This document shows, piece by piece, positions 30,299 through 45,767 of a stretch of 64,000 nucleotides of DNA (positions within the stretch are counted from its first letter, which is position 1; every line of letters starts with the position of its first letter). The position numbers and the translations under genes were made by a program. The notes beneath the pieces were generated by a model, which ran no database searches, was not told the DNA's origin, and worked only from the letters and a program-made list of their open reading frames with translations. Source of the stretch: Dawidia soli (GTDB lineage: Bacteria; Bacteroidota; Bacteroidia; Cytophagales; Cyclobacteriaceae); contig NZ_JAHESC010000005.1 of the NCBI RefSeq assembly GCF_018598185.1, positions 62,001-126,000 of the forward strand, given 5' to 3'.

Positions 30299-32320
30299 AT
30301 GTTTCGAATTTTCCTCTCGCTATTTCTTACGGTTAGTTTCGCTGCGTCGCTCGCTGCGCAGGATATTTTTCTGACGCCATACCAGGCGTTGACGCACGAT
30401 GCCCCCATAAAGATGGTGGCGATGGCGTTTTCTGCCGGCGGTAAATATTTATCGGTGGTGGATGGAAAAGGGACTATATCCATTTGGGATGTGGCAGACA
30501 GGAGTATGGTCAAACAGTGGTCTGTCGATGAGAAAGTACTATATACGTCGTTTACCGAACAGGATAACAAGTTTGTAGCCGTTACGACGGGTGGCGCCAT
30601 ATACCAGTATGCCGTGGGTAACTTTGATCGGGTTCGTACGGCAAAGGTGCTGGCCAGGCTTGTGCTGGCCAACCTCGATCCCTCCCGGCAAACACTGGTG
30701 CTCTACACGCGGGACAACAACCTCGAACTTTTCGATCTGAAGGCAAATCTTACCCATGCAAATATACGTGTGCCGGCTACCGTGAAAAACCCCATGTTTG
30801 TGGGGTACGACCGTTTCGGACAGCAATTGTTTATGATCACCGAGCAAGGTAGCGTGCTGAGCTGGAATCCGATCACACAAAGATTCCTGCGTGAGCTGAC
30901 ATTGCAAAGTGGCGAATATACCGGCTCGCGCTCGGTGTTGCATGCTGCCGCTATGAACTCGCCGGGCGATCGGTTTGTGGTGGGATTACAAGAGGTGTTT
31001 ATCCCCAAAGGGGGTATGCAAGGCCGCAACCAGCCGGAGCGTCGTAACATGATCCTGTCATATGACTGGCTGACCGGCAATGAAAACAAACGCGTGCCGA
31101 TGCGGTACCGGGTGGATGAAATGTCGTTCGCGCCGGGCGCGGGCCACGTGGCCTGTATCTCCAAAGACGCCATGTCGGTGTGGACGGTGAACCTGGAGAA
31201 GGCCGAGATCACCAGCACGGTGTCGCTGCCCGGTACGCCGTCAGTACTGGCAATATCGGAGAACGGTGAATATTTGGCCGTAGGATTGCACAAAGGTGCT
31301 GTGCAGCTGTATTACATAGAACGCAACACGCCGGCCGAGATCAGGATCAATACACCCGGATTGGATCGCAGTTATGCCAGTCAGGTTGTATATACCGACA
31401 AGGCGGCGGTGGAAGGAATGATCGAAGGCAATGAGCGGATCACCAAAGTATATATCAACGACAAAGAGGCAACGCTGGATGGCAATCGTCATTTCTCGGG
31501 GGAGGCCGAGCTGCTGCCCGGCAAGAACAAAGTGCGGATTACGGCCGAGAATACGGAGGCCAGGACCACGGCCAGGGATTTTTACATCACGTACGAGCCC
31601 AGGACGGCCACGGCGGGCAAGACCCATGTTTCGGGCAATGTGAAAGTCTCGCAGAAGAAGGTTGCGCTGGTCATGGGTAACGCATCGTATCAGTATACCA
31701 ACAAACTCAACAATACCGTGAATGATGCCGATGGCATGGCCGCCACATTGAGCGAATTGGGCTTTGACGTGATAAAGATTACCGACGGTACATACGAGCA
31801 GATGAAGAACGCCATCTATGCATTCGGCGATCGTGTGCAGGATGTGGACGTATCGGTGTTTTATTACGCAGGCCACGGCCTGGAAGTGGACGGCGCCAAT
31901 TACCTGGTGCCGGTGGATGCCGATATCCAGTCGGCGTTGGATGTGCGCCAGAAGACCATTCCGTTGACGGGGGTGCTGCGCACCATGGAGGTAACGAACC
32001 ACGAGGGACTGAACATGATCATCCTAGATGCCTGTAGGAACAACCCGTTCCCGACGGGTAAGCGGGGTGGGGCGGGGCTTGCCAAGGTCAATGCCCCCTC
32101 GGGTACGATCATCGCGTATGCAACAGACCCCGGCTCGGTTGCCTCCGACGGTGCCGGCGCGCACGGTTTGTATACCGGCGAGCTGATCAAGCAAATGAAA
32201 TTGTCGCAACGTATCGAGGATGTATTTATGAACACACGCAACCGCGTGGAAGAGCTGTCGAAAGGCTCACAGCGGCCATGGGAAGAGGCCCGCCTGAAAG
32301 GGGTGTTCTACCTGAAGTAG
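30299..32320 (+). CDS. WD40-like propeller fused to a caspase-family (C14) peptidase
   Basis: 673 residues. A signal peptide (MFRIFLSLFLTVSFAASLAAQ) suggests export, unusual for caspase homologues. Residues about 35-345 form a WD40-like propeller (SAGGKYLSVVDGKGTISIWD, NGEYLAVGLHKGAVQLYYIE). A short Ig-like segment follows (about 355-425, EGNERITKVYINDKEATLDG). The C-terminal caspase domain (about 450-673) has KVALVMGNASYQYTNKLNN, catalytic His526 in YYAGHG and Cys579 in LDACRNNPF. It is a bacterial orthocaspase, probably cutting after a basic residue, with the propeller as sensor or substrate-binding part. It lies 0.5 kb upstream of an ECF sigma run but is not obviously co-transcribed. Confidence 0.9.
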   Translation: MFRIFLSLFLTVSFAASLAAQDIFLTPYQALTHDAPIKMVAMAFSAGGKYLSVVDGKGTISIWDVADRSMVKQWSVDEKVLYTSFTEQDNKFVAVTTGGAIYQYAVGNFDRVRTAKVLARLVLANLDPSRQTLVLYTRDNNLELFDLKANLTHANIRVPATVKNPMFVGYDRFGQQLFMITEQGSVLSWNPITQRFLRELTLQSGEYTGSRSVLHAAAMNSPGDRFVVGLQEVFIPKGGMQGRNQPERRNMILSYDWLTGNENKRVPMRYRVDEMSFAPGAGHVACISKDAMSVWTVNLEKAEITSTVSLPGTPSVLAISENGEYLAVGLHKGAVQLYYIERNTPAEIRINTPGLDRSYASQVVYTDKAAVEGMIEGNERITKVYINDKEATLDGNRHFSGEAELLPGKNKVRITAENTEARTTARDFYITYEPRTATAGKTHVSGNVKVSQKKVALVMGNASYQYTNKLNNTVNDADGMAATLSELGFDVIKITDGTYEQMKNAIYAFGDRVQDVDVSVFYYAGHGLEVDGANYLVPVDADIQSALDVRQKTIPLTGVLRTMEVTNHEGLNMIILDACRNNPFPTGKRGGAGLAKVNAPSGTIIAYATDPGSVASDGAGAHGLYTGELIKQMKLSQRIEDVFMNTRNRVEELSKGSQRPWEEARLKGVFYLK

Positions 32321-36716: not shown

Positions 36717-37619
36717 ATGCGGTTTATTATCAGAACACTTTTCACAGCGCTGGCCTTTACGACATGTTATACGTTTTCGGCACGTGCACAAGACGAACTG
36801 TTGCAAGAGCTTTCCACGGGCCAGGAAGATCAGGGTGCCTATATCGGCCAGGCCTTTAAGGGCTCGCGGCTGGTGAACGGCCACTCGGCAGAGACGACCC
36901 GCGCCGGTACCCTGGAGTTTATTTTTTCGCACCGCTTCGGACGCGTGAACGGCGGTTTGTATGAGATGTTTGGTTTGGACGACGCCTTTGTGCGCATCGG
37001 CCTGGAATATGGTCTGACCGATAACCTGAGCGTTGCCATTGGTCGTAACTCGGTGGATAAGACGGTGGACGGCTACCTGAAGTATAAACTGCTGCGCCAG
37101 ACCAAAGATGGCATGCCCTTTACCGTCACGGCATTTGGCAGCGGCGCGTATAAGACATCGCCCAAGGACGATGCAGTACCGGCGGGTTTTGAAACGATCG
37201 ACCGCCTGGCGTATACCGGCCAGCTGTTGATCGCCCGCCGCTTCACCTCGAAGCTGTCGCTGCAGCTGATGCCGACGGTGGTGCACAAGAATTACATCGC
37301 CCTGAGCGAAGGCGATTCTGAAAACACACAGGCGGCGATCGGGATCGGCGGCCGTATCAAGCTGACGCGTAGCGTATCCGTGAATGCTGAATATTACCAC
37401 CGCCTGAATGCGGCCGACAACTCGCCATACAAGGACGCGATCGGCCTGGCGATCGACATCGAGACGGGCGGCCACGTATTCCAGATCGTGATGACGAACA
37501 CACGTGGCATGATCGAGCGGACGTTCATTACCGAGACGGACGGCGACTTTTTCGACGGCGACATCCACCTGGGCTTTAACGTGACACGTGCCTTCCAGCT
37601 GAAGTCGCACAAACGCTGA
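36717..37619 (+). CDS. DUF5777-family outer membrane beta-barrel protein
   Basis: 300 residues. The signal peptide ends SARAQ (about 25). The body shows the DUF5777 pattern: FKGSRLVNGHSAETTRAGTL, IFSHRFGRVNGGLYEMFGLD and IGLEYGLTDNLSVAIGRN, followed by many strands. It is expected to form a barrel of about 12-14 strands in the outer membrane. DUF5777 genes commonly travel with YceI and cytochrome-like genes in Bacteroidota, as here. Last gene of the run before a terminator-like hairpin at 37671. Confidence 0.85.
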   Translation: MRFIIRTLFTALAFTTCYTFSARAQDELLQELSTGQEDQGAYIGQAFKGSRLVNGHSAETTRAGTLEFIFSHRFGRVNGGLYEMFGLDDAFVRIGLEYGLTDNLSVAIGRNSVDKTVDGYLKYKLLRQTKDGMPFTVTAFGSGAYKTSPKDDAVPAGFETIDRLAYTGQLLIARRFTSKLSLQLMPTVVHKNYIALSEGDSENTQAAIGIGGRIKLTRSVSVNAEYYHRLNAADNSPYKDAIGLAIDIETGGHVFQIVMTNTRGMIERTFITETDGDFFDGDIHLGFNVTRAFQLKSHKR

Positions 37620-37670
37620 CGATATATGGCCTTTTGAGGCCCACTACCTGAGTACAGTATGCTGATCATT

Positions 37671-37714
37671 CCCCGAAACGGTCTGCCATAGGCCGCTTCC
37701 CGGGGTGCCTTTTT
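37671..37714 (+). terminator. Probable terminator after the DUF5777 gene
   Basis: CCCCG (37671-37675) pairs with CGGGG (37701-37705), with inner CGG/CCG pairing, then TGCC and five Ts. A smaller GGCCT-TTTG-AGGCC hairpin precedes it at 37628-37641. Together they suggest that the following lipoprotein gene has its own promoter. Confidence 0.45.
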
Positions 37715-37756
37715 CTAAAACTTTTTTCTTTTAAACCCTAAATAATTTTAATCTGT

Positions 37757-38632
37757 ATGAAACTTCTGTTTAACACGCGTATGCTCTTTTTGCGGGGCAT
37801 GTTCTTTACGGCAGCTCTGTCGGCTGTTGTGCTTGGTTGTAGCGACGACGACGATAACACACCGGCTGAACCCGAAGTAGCGATCAAGCTCAGCAGCTCG
37901 GCTGATCTTGGCTCGTTCCTGACGGATGCCGACGGCAATACCCTGTATTATTTCGCTACCGACGTGGCCGGGACCAACACCTGTACGGGTGGATGCACGG
38001 CCAACTGGCCGGTATACAACGAGGCCGGACTGACCGAAGACCTGGTGGGCGAAGGTCTGGACTTTGACGACTTCGCGACCATTACCACAAACGGTGTAGC
38101 GCAAACGACCTACAAAGGATGGCCCCTCTATTATTATGCACCCGGCGGCGTGCGTGAAGCTGCCGGTCAAACAACAGGCGAAGGTGTCGGTGGCGTATGG
38201 TTTGTTGCCAAGCCCGACTACACCGTTCAACTGGCGAAAGGTCAGCTGATCGGTGCCGATAGCAAACACTACAAAGGTGACTATACGGAAGGCGATGGTC
38301 CCGTGACATACTTTACCGATACCCACGGCCGTACACTGTATATCTTCGTGATCGATAAGAAGAACACGAACAACTTTACCACCGGAGATGCCGCCCATGA
38401 TGCCGCCTGGCCGATCTTTGAAGCTACACCGGAGCAGGTTCCTTCGACCCTGGACAAGACCTTGTTCGGCACGATCGATGTCTTCGGTAAAAAGCAGCTT
38501 ACCTACAAAGGCTGGCCGATATACTACTTTGGCTCAGACACGCAGCGGGGGCAAACAAAAGGCGTAAGCGTGCCGCAACCCGGTGTTTGGCCTGTGGTGG
38601 TGAAAGATCTCGAGACTGCTCCAGAGGAATAG
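37757..38632 (+). CDS. COG4315-type lipoprotein (Yx(F/W/Y)xxD repeats)
   Basis: 291 residues. The lipobox AVVLGC precedes an Asp-rich spacer. Two to four repeats of the secreted-repeat type (PF03640) follow: DADGNTLYYFATDV, CTGGCTANWPVYNE, THGRTLYIFVID, and twice a segment TYKGWP(L/I)YY. This family of periplasmic or surface lipoproteins is linked to redox and envelope functions, but its biochemistry is unclear. It follows the YceI/DUF5777 genes by 137 bp and ends at a strong terminator, so it may belong to the same functional set. Confidence 0.82.
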   Translation: MKLLFNTRMLFLRGMFFTAALSAVVLGCSDDDDNTPAEPEVAIKLSSSADLGSFLTDADGNTLYYFATDVAGTNTCTGGCTANWPVYNEAGLTEDLVGEGLDFDDFATITTNGVAQTTYKGWPLYYYAPGGVREAAGQTTGEGVGGVWFVAKPDYTVQLAKGQLIGADSKHYKGDYTEGDGPVTYFTDTHGRTLYIFVIDKKNTNNFTTGDAAHDAAWPIFEATPEQVPSTLDKTLFGTIDVFGKKQLTYKGWPIYYFGSDTQRGQTKGVSVPQPGVWPVVVKDLETAPEE

Positions 38633-39947: not shown

Positions 39948-40490
39948 ATGACACTTCTTATTCAACGATCTTCCAGATTTATAATGTTGGCCGTGATGGT
40001 CGTAGTGCTGGCGATGGGCGCCGGTTGTAAGGGTAAAAAGAAAGCGATGGAGGCACAAGCGGCGGCCGAGAAGGCGCGTATGGAGCAGGAAGCTGCCGCC
40101 CGCAAGCAACGTGAAGAAGAGGAGGCTCGCCGTCGCCGTGAGGCTGAAGAGCAGGCCCGCCGCGATGCAGAAGCGCGTACCCGTGCCGAGCGAGAAGTTG
40201 GTCCGCAGAAAAAACTCGAACAATATTTTAGCGCTATAGCCAACGCTTCCAGCCCGGGAGCCGCCAACAACAGCATCAACGAAGCACTTGCATTATTCGC
40301 TTCGCCGTCAACACCCGTATTGATCGTGATTCACGAAGAGGGCGGTGAGAAAGATTACGATCGTCCTACCAATATCAAGGACTATCTGAATTATCTCAAG
40401 GATCAGCGAAAGCCGGCCGACCGCATTGGCAACCTTCAGTTTGACGGTTCCGGCAAGATCAAAGAGGTCGAGCTGGTGAAGCAGAAATAA
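39948..40490 (+). CDS. Lipoprotein with charged coiled coil, first gene of the LRR operon
   Basis: 180 residues. The signal ends in the lipobox MGAGC (Cys at about 27) followed by KGKKK. Residues about 35-85 form an Ala/Glu/Arg-rich single helix or coiled coil (EEEEARRRREAEEQARRDAE). The C-terminal 100 residues are compact: KLEQYFSAIANAS, then TNIKDYLNYLKDQ and IGNLQFDGSGKIKEVEL. By eye this block resembles, in spacing and hydrophobic pattern, a segment in the third-from-last and last genes of the operon (xxxYLxxLxxxxxxRIxxxxF). An NTF2-like fold is possible. Function unknown. The next gene starts 27 bp downstream. Confidence 0.65.
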   Translation: MTLLIQRSSRFIMLAVMVVVLAMGAGCKGKKKAMEAQAAAEKARMEQEAAARKQREEEEARRRREAEEQARRDAEARTRAEREVGPQKKLEQYFSAIANASSPGAANNSINEALALFASPSTPVLIVIHEEGGEKDYDRPTNIKDYLNYLKDQRKPADRIGNLQFDGSGKIKEVELVKQK

Positions 40491-40517
40491 TGTTCCATTT
40501 TCAAAACGTATAACGAC

Positions 40518-41096
40518 ATGCATTCTATTAAATATGTATATGCCCTTTTGCTGAGCTTGTGTATCCTGGGGCAGGCGTCCGCGCAAAAAGGTGAGATCAG
40601 CCCGTCCCGGAAGCAAGCCATCGATTCACTGGCATTGGAAAAGGTGCGCGATCTGAGCAAGTATATCAGTATCATTGGCAACAAAAAAACGCCATTCTCG
40701 GAAGCCCAGCGTGTAATGGATCGCGCCGAGGAGCTTTTTGCCCCGGATAGCGAAATGGGTGTTTCTTCGCTGAACCGCAAAGAGGTGAACTACTACAAAG
40801 TGCGCAAATACTTTGAGCGTCTCATGGCCCTGAACTATGACCGCGTTTCGATCGAGTGGTACGATATCCATTATATCAGCGACCTGGAGCGTCAGCCCGA
40901 CGGAAGGTATGTAGGGGTCGTTACCATCTATCAACGTTTTGAAGGCGAGTCTGACGACGGCCTGAAGTATAAAGACACAACGAAGAAAGACATTACTATT
41001 TATGTAGAGCGGAAGAAAACTCAGATCCAGGGCCGTACCATCGAGTTCTGGGACGTAATGCTGGGTGATATCCGGGTGACTGAAACGAGTGCATGA
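40518..41096 (+). CDS. Secreted protein of unknown family, LRR operon
   Basis: 192 residues. The signal peptide MHSIKYVYALLLSLCILGQASAQ is followed by a helical, charged part (about 28-85, SRKQAIDSLALEKVRDLSKY) and a beta-rich part with YYKVRKYFERLMALNYDRVS and VGVVTIYQRFEGESDDGL. The VRKYFERL block matches the YLNYL and YLKDV blocks of the neighbouring operon proteins. The last codons overlap the next start by 4 bp (ATGA at 41093), so translation is coupled. It is probably periplasmic. No known domain is recognised. Confidence 0.65.
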   Translation: MHSIKYVYALLLSLCILGQASAQKGEISPSRKQAIDSLALEKVRDLSKYISIIGNKKTPFSEAQRVMDRAEELFAPDSEMGVSSLNRKEVNYYKVRKYFERLMALNYDRVSIEWYDIHYISDLERQPDGRYVGVVTIYQRFEGESDDGLKYKDTTKKDITIYVERKKTQIQGRTIEFWDVMLGDIRVTETSA

Positions 41097-41938
41097 TCTA
41101 CGTAAGAGCAGCAATCTTTTTTACATGGGTACTGGGCCTGGCCACGACGATGTCGGTACAGGCCCAGCTCGTCTCCGACATGGACGATGAGAGCCGGCTG
41201 TATGCCGAGACCAAACAAGTGAACCAGTTCTTCCGGAGATTTAACGGTGAGGAAGACGATAAGGGCGATCGGTACGATCCGAAAGACCGGCAGTATCAGA
41301 GCGTGAAGCTTCGCAAGAAGTATCTCGGTATGTTGTTCGACGCGGGCAATGCCGGTATAAAATCCGACCTGAAGGCACAGTTCGGCAAGGACGTGCTGGA
41401 GGGGGCGAACCCTGTCATCCTGGACTTTCACGGCGGCAACTGGTTTGCCGAAGTGCATACCACGTTCCTGTATAACAACAAGGCGCAGACCATGATCTTG
41501 TTCCTGAAATTGGAGAAAGATCACCTGGGTACCAAGTGGGTAATAGACCGGGTACATGCGGATATGTTCGATCCGTACTTTAAGCGCGATACTACCAAAG
41601 TGGGCAAGTTCCTGCATCCCCTCAGCCACGAGCTGGATTTCATGAACCTGCGCAAGGCGTTTCAGAATAGTGACAGCGTCAGCCAGTTTGCCGGCAAACG
41701 CTTTGTGGCCGATCATCTTTCTGTGTTCTTGTATGAGATCAAGAAGGGAAATCTTAAATTTAAGACCGTAGACGAAGTGAAGTTCCACTTCTTTCAGATT
41801 CCCGGCTGGTACTTTGAGCTTTCTGAGTTTAACCGCCCCGGCAACAACAACGGCTGGTTGATCTCCAACCTGGTGAGTCTGAAGAGCGAGTCGGAACGCA
41901 ATATTCTCAGAAAGTACTTGTATTATGAAACGAAATAA
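41093..41938 (+). CDS. Secreted protein of unknown family, LRR operon
   Basis: 281 residues. The signal peptide ends TMSVQAQ (about 25). A conserved-looking core includes RKKYLGMLFDAGNAGIKSDL, NWFAEVHTTFLYNNKAQTM, and a long second half with HELDFMNLRKAFQNSDSVSQ and FHFFQIPGWYFELSEFN. The part around residues 70-165 has an NTF2-like secondary structure pattern by eye. The start overlaps the preceding gene by 4 bp and the end overlaps the following LRR gene by 14 bp. Such tight coupling suggests a stoichiometric envelope complex. Function is unknown. Confidence 0.65.
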   Translation: MIYVRAAIFFTWVLGLATTMSVQAQLVSDMDDESRLYAETKQVNQFFRRFNGEEDDKGDRYDPKDRQYQSVKLRKKYLGMLFDAGNAGIKSDLKAQFGKDVLEGANPVILDFHGGNWFAEVHTTFLYNNKAQTMILFLKLEKDHLGTKWVIDRVHADMFDPYFKRDTTKVGKFLHPLSHELDFMNLRKAFQNSDSVSQFAGKRFVADHLSVFLYEIKKGNLKFKTVDEVKFHFFQIPGWYFELSEFNRPGNNNGWLISNLVSLKSESERNILRKYLYYETK

Positions 41939-44486
41939 ACTGTGGCTGATCACAGTTTTCCTGCTCCTGGTGTATGTTGCCCCTGTAGAAGCCCAGCAAA
42001 AAAAGCAACCGGCAAAAAAGCAACAGTCCACTAAGAAAGGTCAACAGCCTGCCAAGAAGACTACTACGTCCACCAGCCCTAAGAAGCAAGAAGCCAAGCC
42101 GGCTGCTCCGCCACCCGATGTCACGGCAAAGCCCGTCGACGCGTCGGGCCACGAGGCGAAGGTGCGCGACATGGTAGCGTTCCTGGAGTATGTGCTGAAC
42201 ACCCTGGGCAGCAGCGCGACGCTGGCGCGCGATAAAGACGTACTGGTGACACAGAGCTATACCAAGATCTTTCGCGATGGCAAAGTCCAGATCGAAGACG
42301 ATCTCGACGAGAACCGGAAGGTCATCACCAATAAAGATGTGCAAGCGTATCTGAAAGATGTCGACTTTTTCTTTGATGACGTAAAGTTTGAATTTGCCAT
42401 CGACGAAATACAACAGAAGACGCTGGCCGGTGATAAGCTCTTTTATAAAGTGACACTGCGGCGAAACATGAAAGGCACCACGGTCGCAGGCAAGGCGGTG
42501 AACAGCACGTTGAAGCGGTTTATCGAGATCAACTACAATCCCGACGACCAGGATCTGAAGATCGTCAGCATTTACACGAATGAGTTTAACGAGAAGGGCG
42601 CATTGAAAGAGTGGTGGAACCAGCTCTCGTATGAATGGCAGGCGATTTTCAGCCGCAAGCTGGGACTGGCCGACAGTGTGTCGCTGACAGACATCAAAAA
42701 CGTAACCGCCATCGAGTCGCTGGACCTGAGCCGCAACAGCTATATTCAGAGTCTCGAGCCGCTGTCGGCATTGGTGGGCCTGCGCACGCTGGATATCTCA
42801 AATACCTTTATTACCGACATTAGTCCTATCCGCAACCTGACCGATCTGGTGGACCTCAACCTGTCGCATACCGGCGTGGCCGACCTCACACCGTTAAAGT
42901 ACGCGGAGAATTTGCAACGTCTGAACTTTGGCTATACAAAGGTGCGTGACCTCGCGCCCCTGGAGCGCATGCTCAAGCTGGAGTTCCTGGAGATGGAGAA
43001 CCTCGAACCCAACGACTTTTCCATGTTAAGCAGGCTTACCGCGCTAAAGCATCTGGATGCGAGCGGATCCACGCTGACGCAGGCGACAGTGCTGGAACCG
43101 TTGGTGAACCTGCAGGAGCTGGGGTTGTCGCAGACACCGGTTACCGACCTGAATGCCCTCAAGGGCATGAAGAAACTGATGATCCTGCGCCTCGACAGCA
43201 CGCGCTTGACAGACCTCACGCCGCTGGGCAGCGTGGAAGGGTTAAAGGCGTTGTATGTGAACTATACCCCGGTGGCAACACTGGCGCCCCTGGACCCATT
43301 GGCACACCTCGAGAGAGTATACTGCGACCATACGGCCATTAATCGCGCGGCTGCCGATGCCTTTATGGCGTCTAACCCGGGCGTGTTGGTGATCTTCGAC
43401 TCCGAGGATTTGAAGGGCTGGTGGGACACGTTGCCCGCCGTGTGGCAGAAGATCTTCCGCGATGCCGCCCGTACCGCGGCTGAGCCCGGCAAGGAAGAGC
43501 TGGCGCGTATCACGACACTCGACTCGATCAACCTTGGCGGTAATGCCCAGATCCGAAGCCTTGACCCGCTCGAAAAGCTGACGAAGTTGAAAGTGGTGAT
43601 CGCCGCGAAAACATCCATCCGCGACCTGATGCCGCTGCAAGATCACCAGGAGATCCGAACGCTCGACATCCGCGATACGCCGGTAGACGACCTGGCCGTG
43701 GTGGGGCGCTTTAAGAAGTTAAATACATTGCAAGCCGACCGCAGCAAGATCCAGACGCTGGAGCCACTCGCATCGGCCGGCAGCCTGCGCAAAGTATATG
43801 CCGACCAGACGGCTATCAACGACGAGCAGGCACGCCAGTTGTTGCGCCAACACACCGAATGCCTCGTGGTATACAAAACCGACTCGTTGCAAGCGTGGTG
43901 GAACAGCGTGACCGACGACTGGAAAGAGATCTTCAACACGCAGCTGCGCATGCAACCGCAGCCGACGCGGGAGGACCTACACCGACTGGTGGAGTTGAAG
44001 ACTGTGCACGCCGGCGAAACGCGGGTTCAGGACCTGACACCGCTGGGTGTGTTTATCCGTCTTTCGGAGCTGCGTTTTTCGGGCACGGCCGTTACCGACA
44101 TCACGCCGCTTACGAAAGTGAAGACGCTCACATCGCTGTACCTTACGCATAGCCCGCTGCGTGAGCTCGATCCACTCGCGCAACTGTCAAACCTGGAAGA
44201 CCTTGATATTTCCAATACACCGACAGAAGACCTGAGACCCCTCAGCAGTCTGCAAAACCTCAAGAAGATAAACTGCGCCGGCACGCAGATCAAAACCCTG
44301 ACGGCGTTGGAAACATTACGGTCATTGGAGTTCCTCGACTGCTCGAACACCGAAGTCAAAAAGATCGACCCGTTGCAAGAGCTGCCCTTAAAGACACTGA
44401 AGTGTTACAATACCAAGATATCGGCCAGGCAGGTGGAAAGTTTTCAAAAGATCCATCCCGACTGTCAGGTGATGTACTACCGATAA
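41925..44486 (+). CDS. Exported leucine-rich repeat protein with three WW-x(7)-W modules
   Basis: 853 residues. A signal peptide (about 1-24) is followed by a Lys/Gln/Pro/Ala-rich linker (25-70). An N-terminal alpha/beta domain (about 80-225) contains VQAYLKDVDFFFDDVKFEF, like its operon partners. Three repeat blocks follow. Each begins with a WW-x(6,7)-W-x(2)-IF segment (Trp pairs at 230/231, 499/500 and 658/659). An LRR stretch follows with PLxxLxxLxxLxLSxTxVxDL-type units, and each block ends in a cap such as SNPGVLVIFD, QHTECLVVYK or IHPDCQVMYY. It is probably a periplasmic or surface ligand-binding scaffold. It is last in the operon and followed by a terminator. Confidence 0.82.
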   Translation: MKRNKLWLITVFLLLVYVAPVEAQQKKQPAKKQQSTKKGQQPAKKTTTSTSPKKQEAKPAAPPPDVTAKPVDASGHEAKVRDMVAFLEYVLNTLGSSATLARDKDVLVTQSYTKIFRDGKVQIEDDLDENRKVITNKDVQAYLKDVDFFFDDVKFEFAIDEIQQKTLAGDKLFYKVTLRRNMKGTTVAGKAVNSTLKRFIEINYNPDDQDLKIVSIYTNEFNEKGALKEWWNQLSYEWQAIFSRKLGLADSVSLTDIKNVTAIESLDLSRNSYIQSLEPLSALVGLRTLDISNTFITDISPIRNLTDLVDLNLSHTGVADLTPLKYAENLQRLNFGYTKVRDLAPLERMLKLEFLEMENLEPNDFSMLSRLTALKHLDASGSTLTQATVLEPLVNLQELGLSQTPVTDLNALKGMKKLMILRLDSTRLTDLTPLGSVEGLKALYVNYTPVATLAPLDPLAHLERVYCDHTAINRAAADAFMASNPGVLVIFDSEDLKGWWDTLPAVWQKIFRDAARTAAEPGKEELARITTLDSINLGGNAQIRSLDPLEKLTKLKVVIAAKTSIRDLMPLQDHQEIRTLDIRDTPVDDLAVVGRFKKLNTLQADRSKIQTLEPLASAGSLRKVYADQTAINDEQARQLLRQHTECLVVYKTDSLQAWWNSVTDDWKEIFNTQLRMQPQPTREDLHRLVELKTVHAGETRVQDLTPLGVFIRLSELRFSGTAVTDITPLTKVKTLTSLYLTHSPLRELDPLAQLSNLEDLDISNTPTEDLRPLSSLQNLKKINCAGTQIKTLTALETLRSLEFLDCSNTEVKKIDPLQELPLKTLKCYNTKISARQVESFQKIHPDCQVMYYR

Positions 44487-44490
44487 GTAG

Positions 44491-44514
44491 AAAAGCGGTC
44501 TAATGGCCGCTTTT
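44491..44514. terminator. Bidirectional terminator between the LRR operon and a small gene
   Basis: AAAAGCGG (44491-44498) pairs with CCGCTTTT (44507-44514). The stem has As on one side and Ts on the other and serves both converging transcripts; the minus-strand gene's stop codon lies in the loop. Confidence 0.8.
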
Positions 44515-44709
44515 CACTTCTTCCAGATAATGTTCTTTTTGTTTTTCACGCATCAGGTCGGCAAAGGCCTCTTCCGGTGTGTTGCCAAATCCCGTGGGAC
44601 TTTCGTGCCGTGATGTGAAGTCGTTGAAGGCGGCAGCCCAGCCATGGCCTTCTTTAAAGAATCCTACCTCGAACTCTTTCTTTTTTTGATCATATCCTTT
44701 TGCATCCAT
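44500..44709 (-). CDS. Small soluble protein, HicB-like composition
   Basis: 69 residues from the ATG at 44709 (MDAKGYDQKKKEFEVGFFKE). The segment GWAAAFNDFTSRHESPTGFG followed by NTPEEAFADLMREK resembles the strand-helix pattern of HicB-like partial RNase H folds. There, the xGxTxxEAxxxL helix is typical, but no partner hicA gene is adjacent, so a toxin-antitoxin role is not supported. The longer upstream reading (to 44838) would extend over the GH43 leader and is unlikely. Function unknown. Confidence 0.55.
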   Translation of the reverse strand: MDAKGYDQKKKEFEVGFFKEGHGWAAAFNDFTSRHESPTGFGNTPEEAFADLMREKQKEHYLEEVKSGH

Positions 44710-44825
44710 GATGATTGACGTTTTGGAAAGGGAAGGGCAAAAAATGATGCCCGTGGTCGATGGCAGGGCATCAATTTTTAGCCGGATATCACCAGCCGCG
44801 GCCAGGCGGCTTTTATGTGTACGAT

Positions 44826-45767
44826 ATGATCCGAGCAACCGAACAACCGCAAGCGGCCGTGCAAGGCACTGTCCGGGCAGAAGGAAACCCTGTTATTCAG
44901 CATGTATACACGGCAGACCCATCGGCGGTGGTGTATGACGGCCGGGTGTATTTGTTTACGGGCCGCGATGAGGCAGAAGCCGACCAGCAGACCTACATCA
45001 TGCGTGAGTGGCTGTGCTTTTCATCACCGGATATGCGCACCTGGCAACCCCATGGCTCGCCATTGCGGGCACAGGATTTTGCGTGGGCACAAGGCGACGC
45101 ATTTGGGTCGCAGGTAATTACCCGCCACGGAAAATTCTACTGGTATACAGCTGTTACGCACGCTACCATTGCCGGTAAGGCAATTGGCGTAGCCGTGGCC
45201 GATGTGCCGTGGAGCCCGTTTCGCGACGCCCGCGGTACGGCATTGATCACGAACGATATGGTCGCCGCGCCACCCGGTAGTATGAATAACCTGGATCCGG
45301 CCGTGATCGTTGACGACCGTGGACAAGCCTATATTTTCTGGGGTAACGGGCAGGCCTACTACGCACGGCTGAAAGAGAACATGATCGAGCTGGACGGCCC
45401 GATCAGGAAGCTGGACTTGCCGGGCTTTCAGGAGGGCTCACGGTTATATAAACGTCGCGGCTGGTATTACCTTTCTTACGGATCGGGCATGCCTGAGAAG
45501 ATCGTCTATGTCCGCAGCCGTGACCTCGACGGCCCGTGGGAATACTGTGGCATTCTCAACGAAATCGCCGGTAACTGCCAAACCAACTCGGGCTTTATCC
45601 TCGACTACCAGGGGCGGTCGTATTTCATTTACCACAATGGTGCGTTAGCAGGTGGCGGCAGCCACCATCGTTCAGTGTGTATAGATCATATTTACTTTAA
45701 TGCCGACGATACGATTCGCCGGGTCGTTATGACCTCCGAAGGAGTATATGGAGCCCCCGAACCATAG
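44826..45767 (+). CDS. Glycoside hydrolase family 43
   Basis: 313 residues from the ATG at 44826 (MIRATEQPQAAVQG); a frame from 44760 would add 22 unlikely residues. The five-bladed GH43 propeller shows the three expected acids: Asp in YTADPSAVVYDGRVYLF (base), Asp in NNLDPAVIVDDRGQAYIFWG (pKa modulator) and Glu in GFQEGSRLYKRRGWYYLSYG (acid). Substrates of the family are arabinan, arabinoxylan or xylosides. No signal peptide is seen, so it may act on imported oligosaccharides in the cytoplasm. The arabinose operon lies 9 kb away and could take up its product. Confidence 0.88.
   Translation: MIRATEQPQAAVQGTVRAEGNPVIQHVYTADPSAVVYDGRVYLFTGRDEAEADQQTYIMREWLCFSSPDMRTWQPHGSPLRAQDFAWAQGDAFGSQVITRHGKFYWYTAVTHATIAGKAIGVAVADVPWSPFRDARGTALITNDMVAAPPGSMNNLDPAVIVDDRGQAYIFWGNGQAYYARLKENMIELDGPIRKLDLPGFQEGSRLYKRRGWYYLSYGSGMPEKIVYVRSRDLDGPWEYCGILNEIAGNCQTNSGFILDYQGRSYFIYHNGALAGGGSHHRSVCIDHIYFNADDTIRRVVMTSEGVYGAPEP

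Follow-up and report, generated by a model that had tools for sequence, protein, structure and literature searches.

A conserved set of four genes in Cytophagales encodes putatively exported proteins, three of which share a predicted NTF2-like module

What might four consecutive genes for apparently exported proteins do together in Dawidia soli, and do they form one system at all? The genes, here called g1 to g4, occupy positions 39,948 to 44,486 of a 64,000-nucleotide stretch of contig NZ_JAHESC010000005.1 (the window; the genome is 7.48 Mb). An original prediction, made from the letters of the DNA, had read them as an operon for a periplasmic or surface complex built from a duplicated NTF2-like module and a leucine-rich repeat (LRR) scaffold. 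We find that the four genes are a conserved unit, and we favour, at a little under an even chance, a reading in which their products form one periplasmic assembly, a hub for envelope surveillance or capture. The locus comprises the following features (aa, amino acids).

39948..40490, + strand: g1, 180 aa, putative lipoprotein with Cys27, a basic CKGKKK stretch, a long charged spacer and a C-terminal NTF2-like module at about residues 86-180
40518..41096, + strand: g2, 192 aa, exported as judged by its N-terminus, a single NTF2-like domain
41093..41938, + strand: g3, 281 aa, exported as judged by its N-terminus, without a sequence link to the NTF2-like module
41925..44486, + strand: g4, 853 aa, with a signal peptide, a Lys/Pro-rich linker, an NTF2-like module and three WW-capped LRR blocks
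42150..42602, + strand: N-terminal NTF2-like module of g4, residues 76-226
42603..43412, + strand: g4 LRR block 1, Trp pair at residue 230
43413..43889, + strand: g4 LRR block 2, Trp pair at residue 499
43890..44483, + strand: g4 LRR block 3, Trp pair at residue 658
44490..44515, + strand: end hairpin, 11-bp stem with a T-run within its 3' arm

The gene-neighbourhood search that had been proposed as a check recovered the order g1-g2-g3-g4 in 78 of 80 named Cytophagales loci (the best 80 of at least 531 relatives), the other two being interrupted by contig ends, and the order was not confined to close relatives. One of the 78 has its g3 and g4 matches within a single 1003-aa frame. The closest named relative among the matches listed was Parachryseolinea silvisoli (order Cytophagales, 97% g2 identity), in a scan that may omit records of the window's own genome. 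By open reading frame (ORF) coordinates, the junctions in the window are those originally described, namely a 27-bp gap between g1 and g2, a 4-bp overlap between g2 and g3 and a 14-bp overlap between g3 and g4, and the two overlaps recur in 56 and 45 of the named loci, respectively. Flanking genes, alaS- and gatB-like by eye, are common to at most 34 of the 80 loci, so the four genes themselves are the unit. Mean pairwise identity over the 78 loci was 52% for g1, 79% for g2, 55% for g3 and 42% for g4, which makes g2 the most conserved member and g4 the fastest-evolving. Related genomes gave g4 matches in 75 of 98 cases, LRR cross-matches counted in, and 39 of 44 loci fetched from them carry relatives of all four genes; the exceptions have g4 only (L056, L058, L061 and L080, the last at a contig end) or no g3 match (L082). 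An additional short g2-like ORF lies between g1 and g2 in L077 (10155-10532, - strand) and is a possible duplication. The operon also occurs in three metagenome records labelled Rickettsiales, Chitinophaga and Bacteroides (L150, L093 and L096, respectively), labels that look wrong given 78-88% g2 identity to the window.

Co-inheritance was followed in 291 Cytophagales genomes with three queries, g2, g3 and the N-terminal module of g4, and the counts cover these three genes. Cut-offs of E<1e-89 for strict g2 and E<1e-40 for the g4 module were set after viewing the lists, which were copied by hand, and g4-sized frames (704-929 aa) were defined by size and N-terminal module, not by LRR content per genome. 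Any g2 relative was present in 106 of the 291 genomes and strict g2 in 69; g3 accompanied strict g2 in all 69 and a g4-sized frame with the module in 67, both genomes without one (G593 and G631) being drafts. Taken from the other side, 67 of the 68 genomes with a g4-sized frame have strict g2 (the exception, G595, is a draft) and all 68 have g3. The genes need not be adjacent: g2 and g4 lie on different contigs in at least 12 genomes (G062, G081, G096, G497, G508, G510, G533, G535, G544, G574, G586 and G604), and among fetched loci there are examples in which g1-g2 alone (L232, L233, L235, L236) or g2-g3 alone (L197, L198, L199, L227) are followed by unrelated genes. Since the coupling persists where the genes lie apart, linkage alone does not explain it; g2, g3 and g4 are inherited together even in genomes that have separated them. 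Chance proximity of the four genes was rejected on the strength of the order in 78 of 80 loci and the coupling across the 291 genomes. Looser g2 relatives occurred in 37 further genomes, 17 of which have g3. A loose first look at 395 genomes across the phylum, with 6 to 8 candidates per genome, gave matches confined to Cytophagales save for one borderline g3 (G358, E 9.6e-4).

By profile comparison, g1, g2 and g4 were shown to carry one homologous module. With hhalign, g1 matched g2 at P 6e-11 and g2 matched the g4 module at P 2e-8, the best of 20 controls reaching 0.017; orthologue-only sets gave 6e-9 and 1.4e-4. The first main profiles included hand-added sequences, namely three caspase tails and nine g4 modules that were non-LRR or picked by context; the repeat test dropped these sequences, the g2 profile keeping distant relatives found with the g2 model. 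Earlier comparisons of shallow alignments had given P 5e-5 for g2-g4 (signal peptides included), 0.0024 over 13 columns for g2-g3, 0.015 for g1-g2, 0.022 for g3-g4 and 0.15 for the remaining pairs. The structural model of g2 predicts with confidence an NTF2-like fold, a curved sheet with three helices in NTF2-like order, and LinA and ketosteroid isomerase are among the solved folds nearest to it (identity to solved chains 2-19%). This fold was modelled for g2 only, the g1 and g4 modules being assigned by homology to g2. The short motif (V/I)xxY(L/F)xxL with a following beta strand, originally noticed by eye in three of the four proteins, reads IKDYLNYL in g1, VRKYFERL in g2 and VQAYLKDV in g4, where V replaces the last L; it corresponds to helix 95-104 and strand 107-125 of the g2 model, and the stretch is homologous by profile comparison. 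The predicted duplication of an NTF2-like module thus stands for g1, g2 and g4 and is not supported by sequence for g3, and the proposed cross-comparison of all four proteins yielded the g1-g2 and g2-g4 links, none for g3 and none directly between g1 and g4. No Pfam or NCBIfam family scored above its cut-off for g1, g2 or g3; the sub-cut-off matches were coil-like for g1, RnlA_toxin for g2 (E 0.009) and TY-Chap1 for g3 (E 0.06). A sequence search of the PDB found no g2 relative at E up to 10 and three g3 matches at E 0.045 or worse, none of them convincing.

The remaining part of g4 follows a signal peptide, a linker that is Lys/Pro-rich by eye and the module, and consists of three blocks, each of which opens with WW-x(6-7)-W-x(2)-IF, continues with LRR units and closes with a cap. 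Its repeats match Pfam LRR_4 at E 7.8e-49 (163 bits against a cut-off of 27), which bears out the LRR scaffold, and the Trp pairs lie where they had been placed. A WW-x(5-8)-W motif occurs three times in 75 of 79 named g4 sequences and twice in the other four. Blocks 1-3 match one another at BLAST E 1e-18 to 2e-24, LRRs being sequences that match each other easily. As for the caps, described at first as containing Cys and His, the Cys residues are partly conserved, but the caps resemble ordinary LRR caps and nothing suggests metal binding. Single-block WW-LRR proteins of 267-305 aa exist in other families of Cytophagales (L252-L255, three of them with signal-peptide-like starts), and in L256 and L257 a single block is attached to a longer N-terminal part, module-like by eye. 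The WW-LRR block is a reusable part, and novelty of the block by itself was rejected because of the single-block proteins.

Signal peptides of the four proteins were assigned by eye, and export of g2, g3 and g4 was inferred from their hydrophobic N-termini; a crude pattern for the cleavage site fitted only about half of the sequences (38/80 for g2, 39/80 for g3 and 38/79 for g4). Cys27 of g1 is invariant across 41 aligned sequences, with K28 and K31 at 90% or more, and this alignment is better evidence than a Cys pattern requiring K/R after the Cys, which matched 76 of 79 sequences, two of them at the wrong Cys. Searches of Pfam and NCBIfam, both of which presumably hold models of the C-terminal sorting tail of the type IX secretion system (T9SS), matched no such family to g1-g4 at E up to 1. 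PMC5080379 gives acidic residues after the lipid-bearing Cys as the surface-export signal of lipoproteins in Capnocytophaga, Bacteroides and Flavobacterium. In its place g1 has a basic CK-x-x-K, the opposite of that published signal, which is not established for Cytophagales. The surface location allowed by the original prediction therefore appears unlikely, and the periplasm is the best-inferred place of action because basic residues follow the g1 Cys and no T9SS tail was matched.

Relatives with exchanged parts were collected in 40 loci from other families and around distant g2 relatives, 25 with distant g2 (L200-L224) and 15 with strict g2; the neighbours of L212-L226 were seen in part. As relatives, and not the window system itself, these loci guide only the functional guess. 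A g3-like gene is present in 25 of the 40 (17 of the 25 with distant g2 and 8 of the 15 with strict g2). After the g4-type module, TPR takes the place of LRR in L206, L208 and L210; Fn3- or Ig-like parts do so in L202 (where fn3 falls just short of its cut-off) and L212. OmpA-type proteins occur in L200 and L210 (Pfam OmpA E 1e-16 and 1e-18; these are the sequences building the OmpA model), and L210 encodes two further proteins of note, one with a PD40 propeller and one with TPR. Another 16 f11 loci, from 15 genomes and exclusive of L200 and L210, all have an OmpA-type protein next to the fused g2-like gene (16 of 16), and the g4-type module was found in 15 of them, the sixteenth (G711) showing it weakly in the genome search (E 9e-12). 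Two other f11 loci, L201 and L215, have g3 and no OmpA-type neighbour in the part inspected. In the Spirosoma-type loci (L258-L273, L200 and L210), the g2-like domain is fused to an N-terminal part resembling two small domains, and the fused gene is paired with the OmpA-type protein and the g4-type module. At L201 3531-6955 (- strand), next to a g2-g3 pair, there are by eye a ClpB/ClpV-like AAA protein and a gene resembling a metallopeptidase, which may belong to a cluster for contractile injection or secretion.

Caspase-like proteins were found in nine of the 40 distant loci; neither the 80 named loci nor the 44 close ones gave a match. Peptidase_C14 was detected in four of six candidates tested (L212, L213, L215 and L216). 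The tails of six such proteins, a set assembled by hand of which an iterated model had matched three and missed three, matched g2 as a group at P 1.5e-5 and g1 more weakly (2.8e-4 and 1.5e-3); against the g4 module P was no better than the best control (0.012). All six proteins retain His and Cys at the expected places by eye. Caspase-like domains fused to a g2-like domain occur in L213 (7977-9551, - strand) and L222 (6678-8171, + strand), possible pseudo-caspases in which the usual catalytic His appears, by eye, to be lost. Descent of the window's g1 from caspase tails is not favoured, as a tree places g1 inside g2, a weak placement in which long branches meet.

How might these parts work together? 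NTF2-like domains often pair or form rings, as in the CaMKII hub, and we therefore propose g2 as a hub that would pair with the modules of g1 and g4. The lipid and charged spacer of g1 would tie the hub to the periplasmic face of a membrane, g3 would complete the core, and g4 would project its three-block LRR solenoid as the fastest-evolving arm, recognising or capturing an envelope ligand such as a misfolded or foreign protein, a glycan or a wall fragment. Slow evolution of g2 and fast evolution of g4 fit a hub of many contacts with a variable arm. Other Cytophagales loci would have swapped the arm, partner or output for TPR, Fn3/Ig-like parts, an OmpA-type protein or a caspase domain, which fits a modular envelope-surveillance hub.

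Several observations weigh against such a hub. The g1 and g4 modules connect solely via g2 and are not directly similar (hhalign P 0.03 and 0.11), iterations seeded by g1 reached only 1 to 3 of 42 g2 relatives, and without context-added relatives the g2-g4 link falls to P 1.4e-4 and 3.8e-4. Nor does g3 have a profile link to the module (P 0.10-0.41). No g1 lies beside g2 in L197-L199, L227 and L234, and the genes are split in some families, so that the system does not need a single operon of fixed stoichiometry. Neither a ligand nor an enzyme motif nor a regulator was identified for the four-gene set. A bolder version is unlikely: an innate-immunity-like surveillance in the periplasm in which the NTF2-like hub couples an LRR, TPR or Fn3/Ig-like arm to interchangeable outputs including caspase, the window carrying the lipoprotein-tethered LRR form. 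If true, cytoplasmic receptor-protease systems would have a counterpart in the envelope.

The OmpA-type protein beside the g2-like gene in Spirosoma-type relatives (the 16 of 16 above) also suits a purely structural role in envelope maintenance, by tethering of the outer membrane or of peptidoglycan or as an accessory of secretion or assembly machinery, with the solenoids as passive scaffolds and not as a receptor. The OmpA, PD40 and TPR set of L210 points the same way, being reminiscent of PorE (PG1058), which we take to combine these three domains. We consider this alternative somewhat unlikely: the LRR protein evolves fastest, and g2, g3 and g4 are all absent from complete genomes of the same family (e.g. 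G146, G280 and G023), from which it follows that the system is dispensable. Patchy presence, with a g2 relative in 106 of 291 genomes, and the nine distant caspase-like loci, six with a g2-similar tail, would be expected of envelope conflict or defence, the LRR arm recognising a phage, predator or competitor and related loci killing by caspase. The window operon lacks a caspase domain, however, and none was matched in the named and close loci; a very slow g2 and split genes that are kept together look closer to a housekeeping role than to a mobile defence island, and we judge defence distinctly improbable.

A still less probable explanation would place the function in a g2 pocket like that of SnoaL or ketosteroid isomerase relatives, where a small molecule delivered by the other proteins would be bound or converted. 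The closest solved folds and the strong invariance of g2 agree with it, but no catalytic residue set was identified, identity to the solved chains is low as given above, and three NTF2-like copies with a long solenoid better suit an assembly. Finally, the large LRR protein and its internalin-like profile matches, all far below cut-offs, might suggest a surface adhesin or attachment complex with g4 exposed outside. With no T9SS tail family, no acidic surface signal on g1 and no apparent route over the outer membrane, this would be very surprising.

At its 3' end, where a strong terminator had been noted, the locus has a strongly folding hairpin (-20.8 kcal/mol, z -4.9), but no T-run follows the stem, and a terminator scan did not list the hairpin. 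Because its T-run sits in the 3' arm, facing the convergent gene at 44500-44838, the hairpin may be a bidirectional terminator common to that gene and g4. A promoter scan of the locus returned 2 sites, against a mean of 3.6 in shuffles. Neighbours on the + strand at 36717-38629 and 44760-45764 (a DUF5777 barrel, Lipoprotein_15 repeats and a GH43 glycosidase) show no sign of membership in the four-gene system. About 8 kb upstream of the operon, at 30299-32320 (+ strand), lies the gene for a caspase-like protein of a separate kind, matched to C14 at E 2.6e-39 when the genome was searched, whose N-terminal part is propeller-like by eye. It has no NTF2-like module, and a link to the operon was rejected on that ground; none of the six C14 loci of the genome has the module, and a Pfam search found no Peptidase_C14 domain in g1-g4.

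A literature search that covered few subscription papers, with PMC3501461 and PMC7159879 among the sources consulted, returned no described system matching the four-gene set, in agreement with the original statement that no named system has this layout. Within the NTF2-like superfamily (SnoaL, ketosteroid isomerase, CaMKII hub), g2 differs in lacking a Pfam family over cut-off or a PDB sequence relative, in being, by its N-terminus, exported, and in belonging to a conserved gene set. Like internalins and other bacterial LRR proteins, g4 has LRR_4 repeats, but its best internalin model in NCBIfam, for class 1 internalins, scores 157.7 bits against a cut-off of 1050, and its three WW-capped blocks stand behind an NTF2-like module. 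Prokaryotic caspase homologues (orthocaspases/metacaspases), for which the part of PMC3501461 covered here describes diverse secreted architectures, resemble distant relatives of the operon in which Peptidase_C14 stands next to a module-like tail; the window operon has no caspase domain, and that part of the source did not yield an NTF2-like tail. L210 is comparable to PorE of type IX secretion in bringing periplasmic OmpA, PD40 and TPR parts together, whereas these domains are all absent from the window operon. The building blocks of the four-gene system are known fold types; the system itself is not described in the literature searched. Parts that stay together across several families, even unlinked and with g2 at 79% identity, must serve something specific, and recognition of a single NTF2-like module across LRR, TPR, OmpA-linked and caspase-linked loci would gather many Cytophagales envelope proteins now called 'hypothetical' into one system that can be tested.

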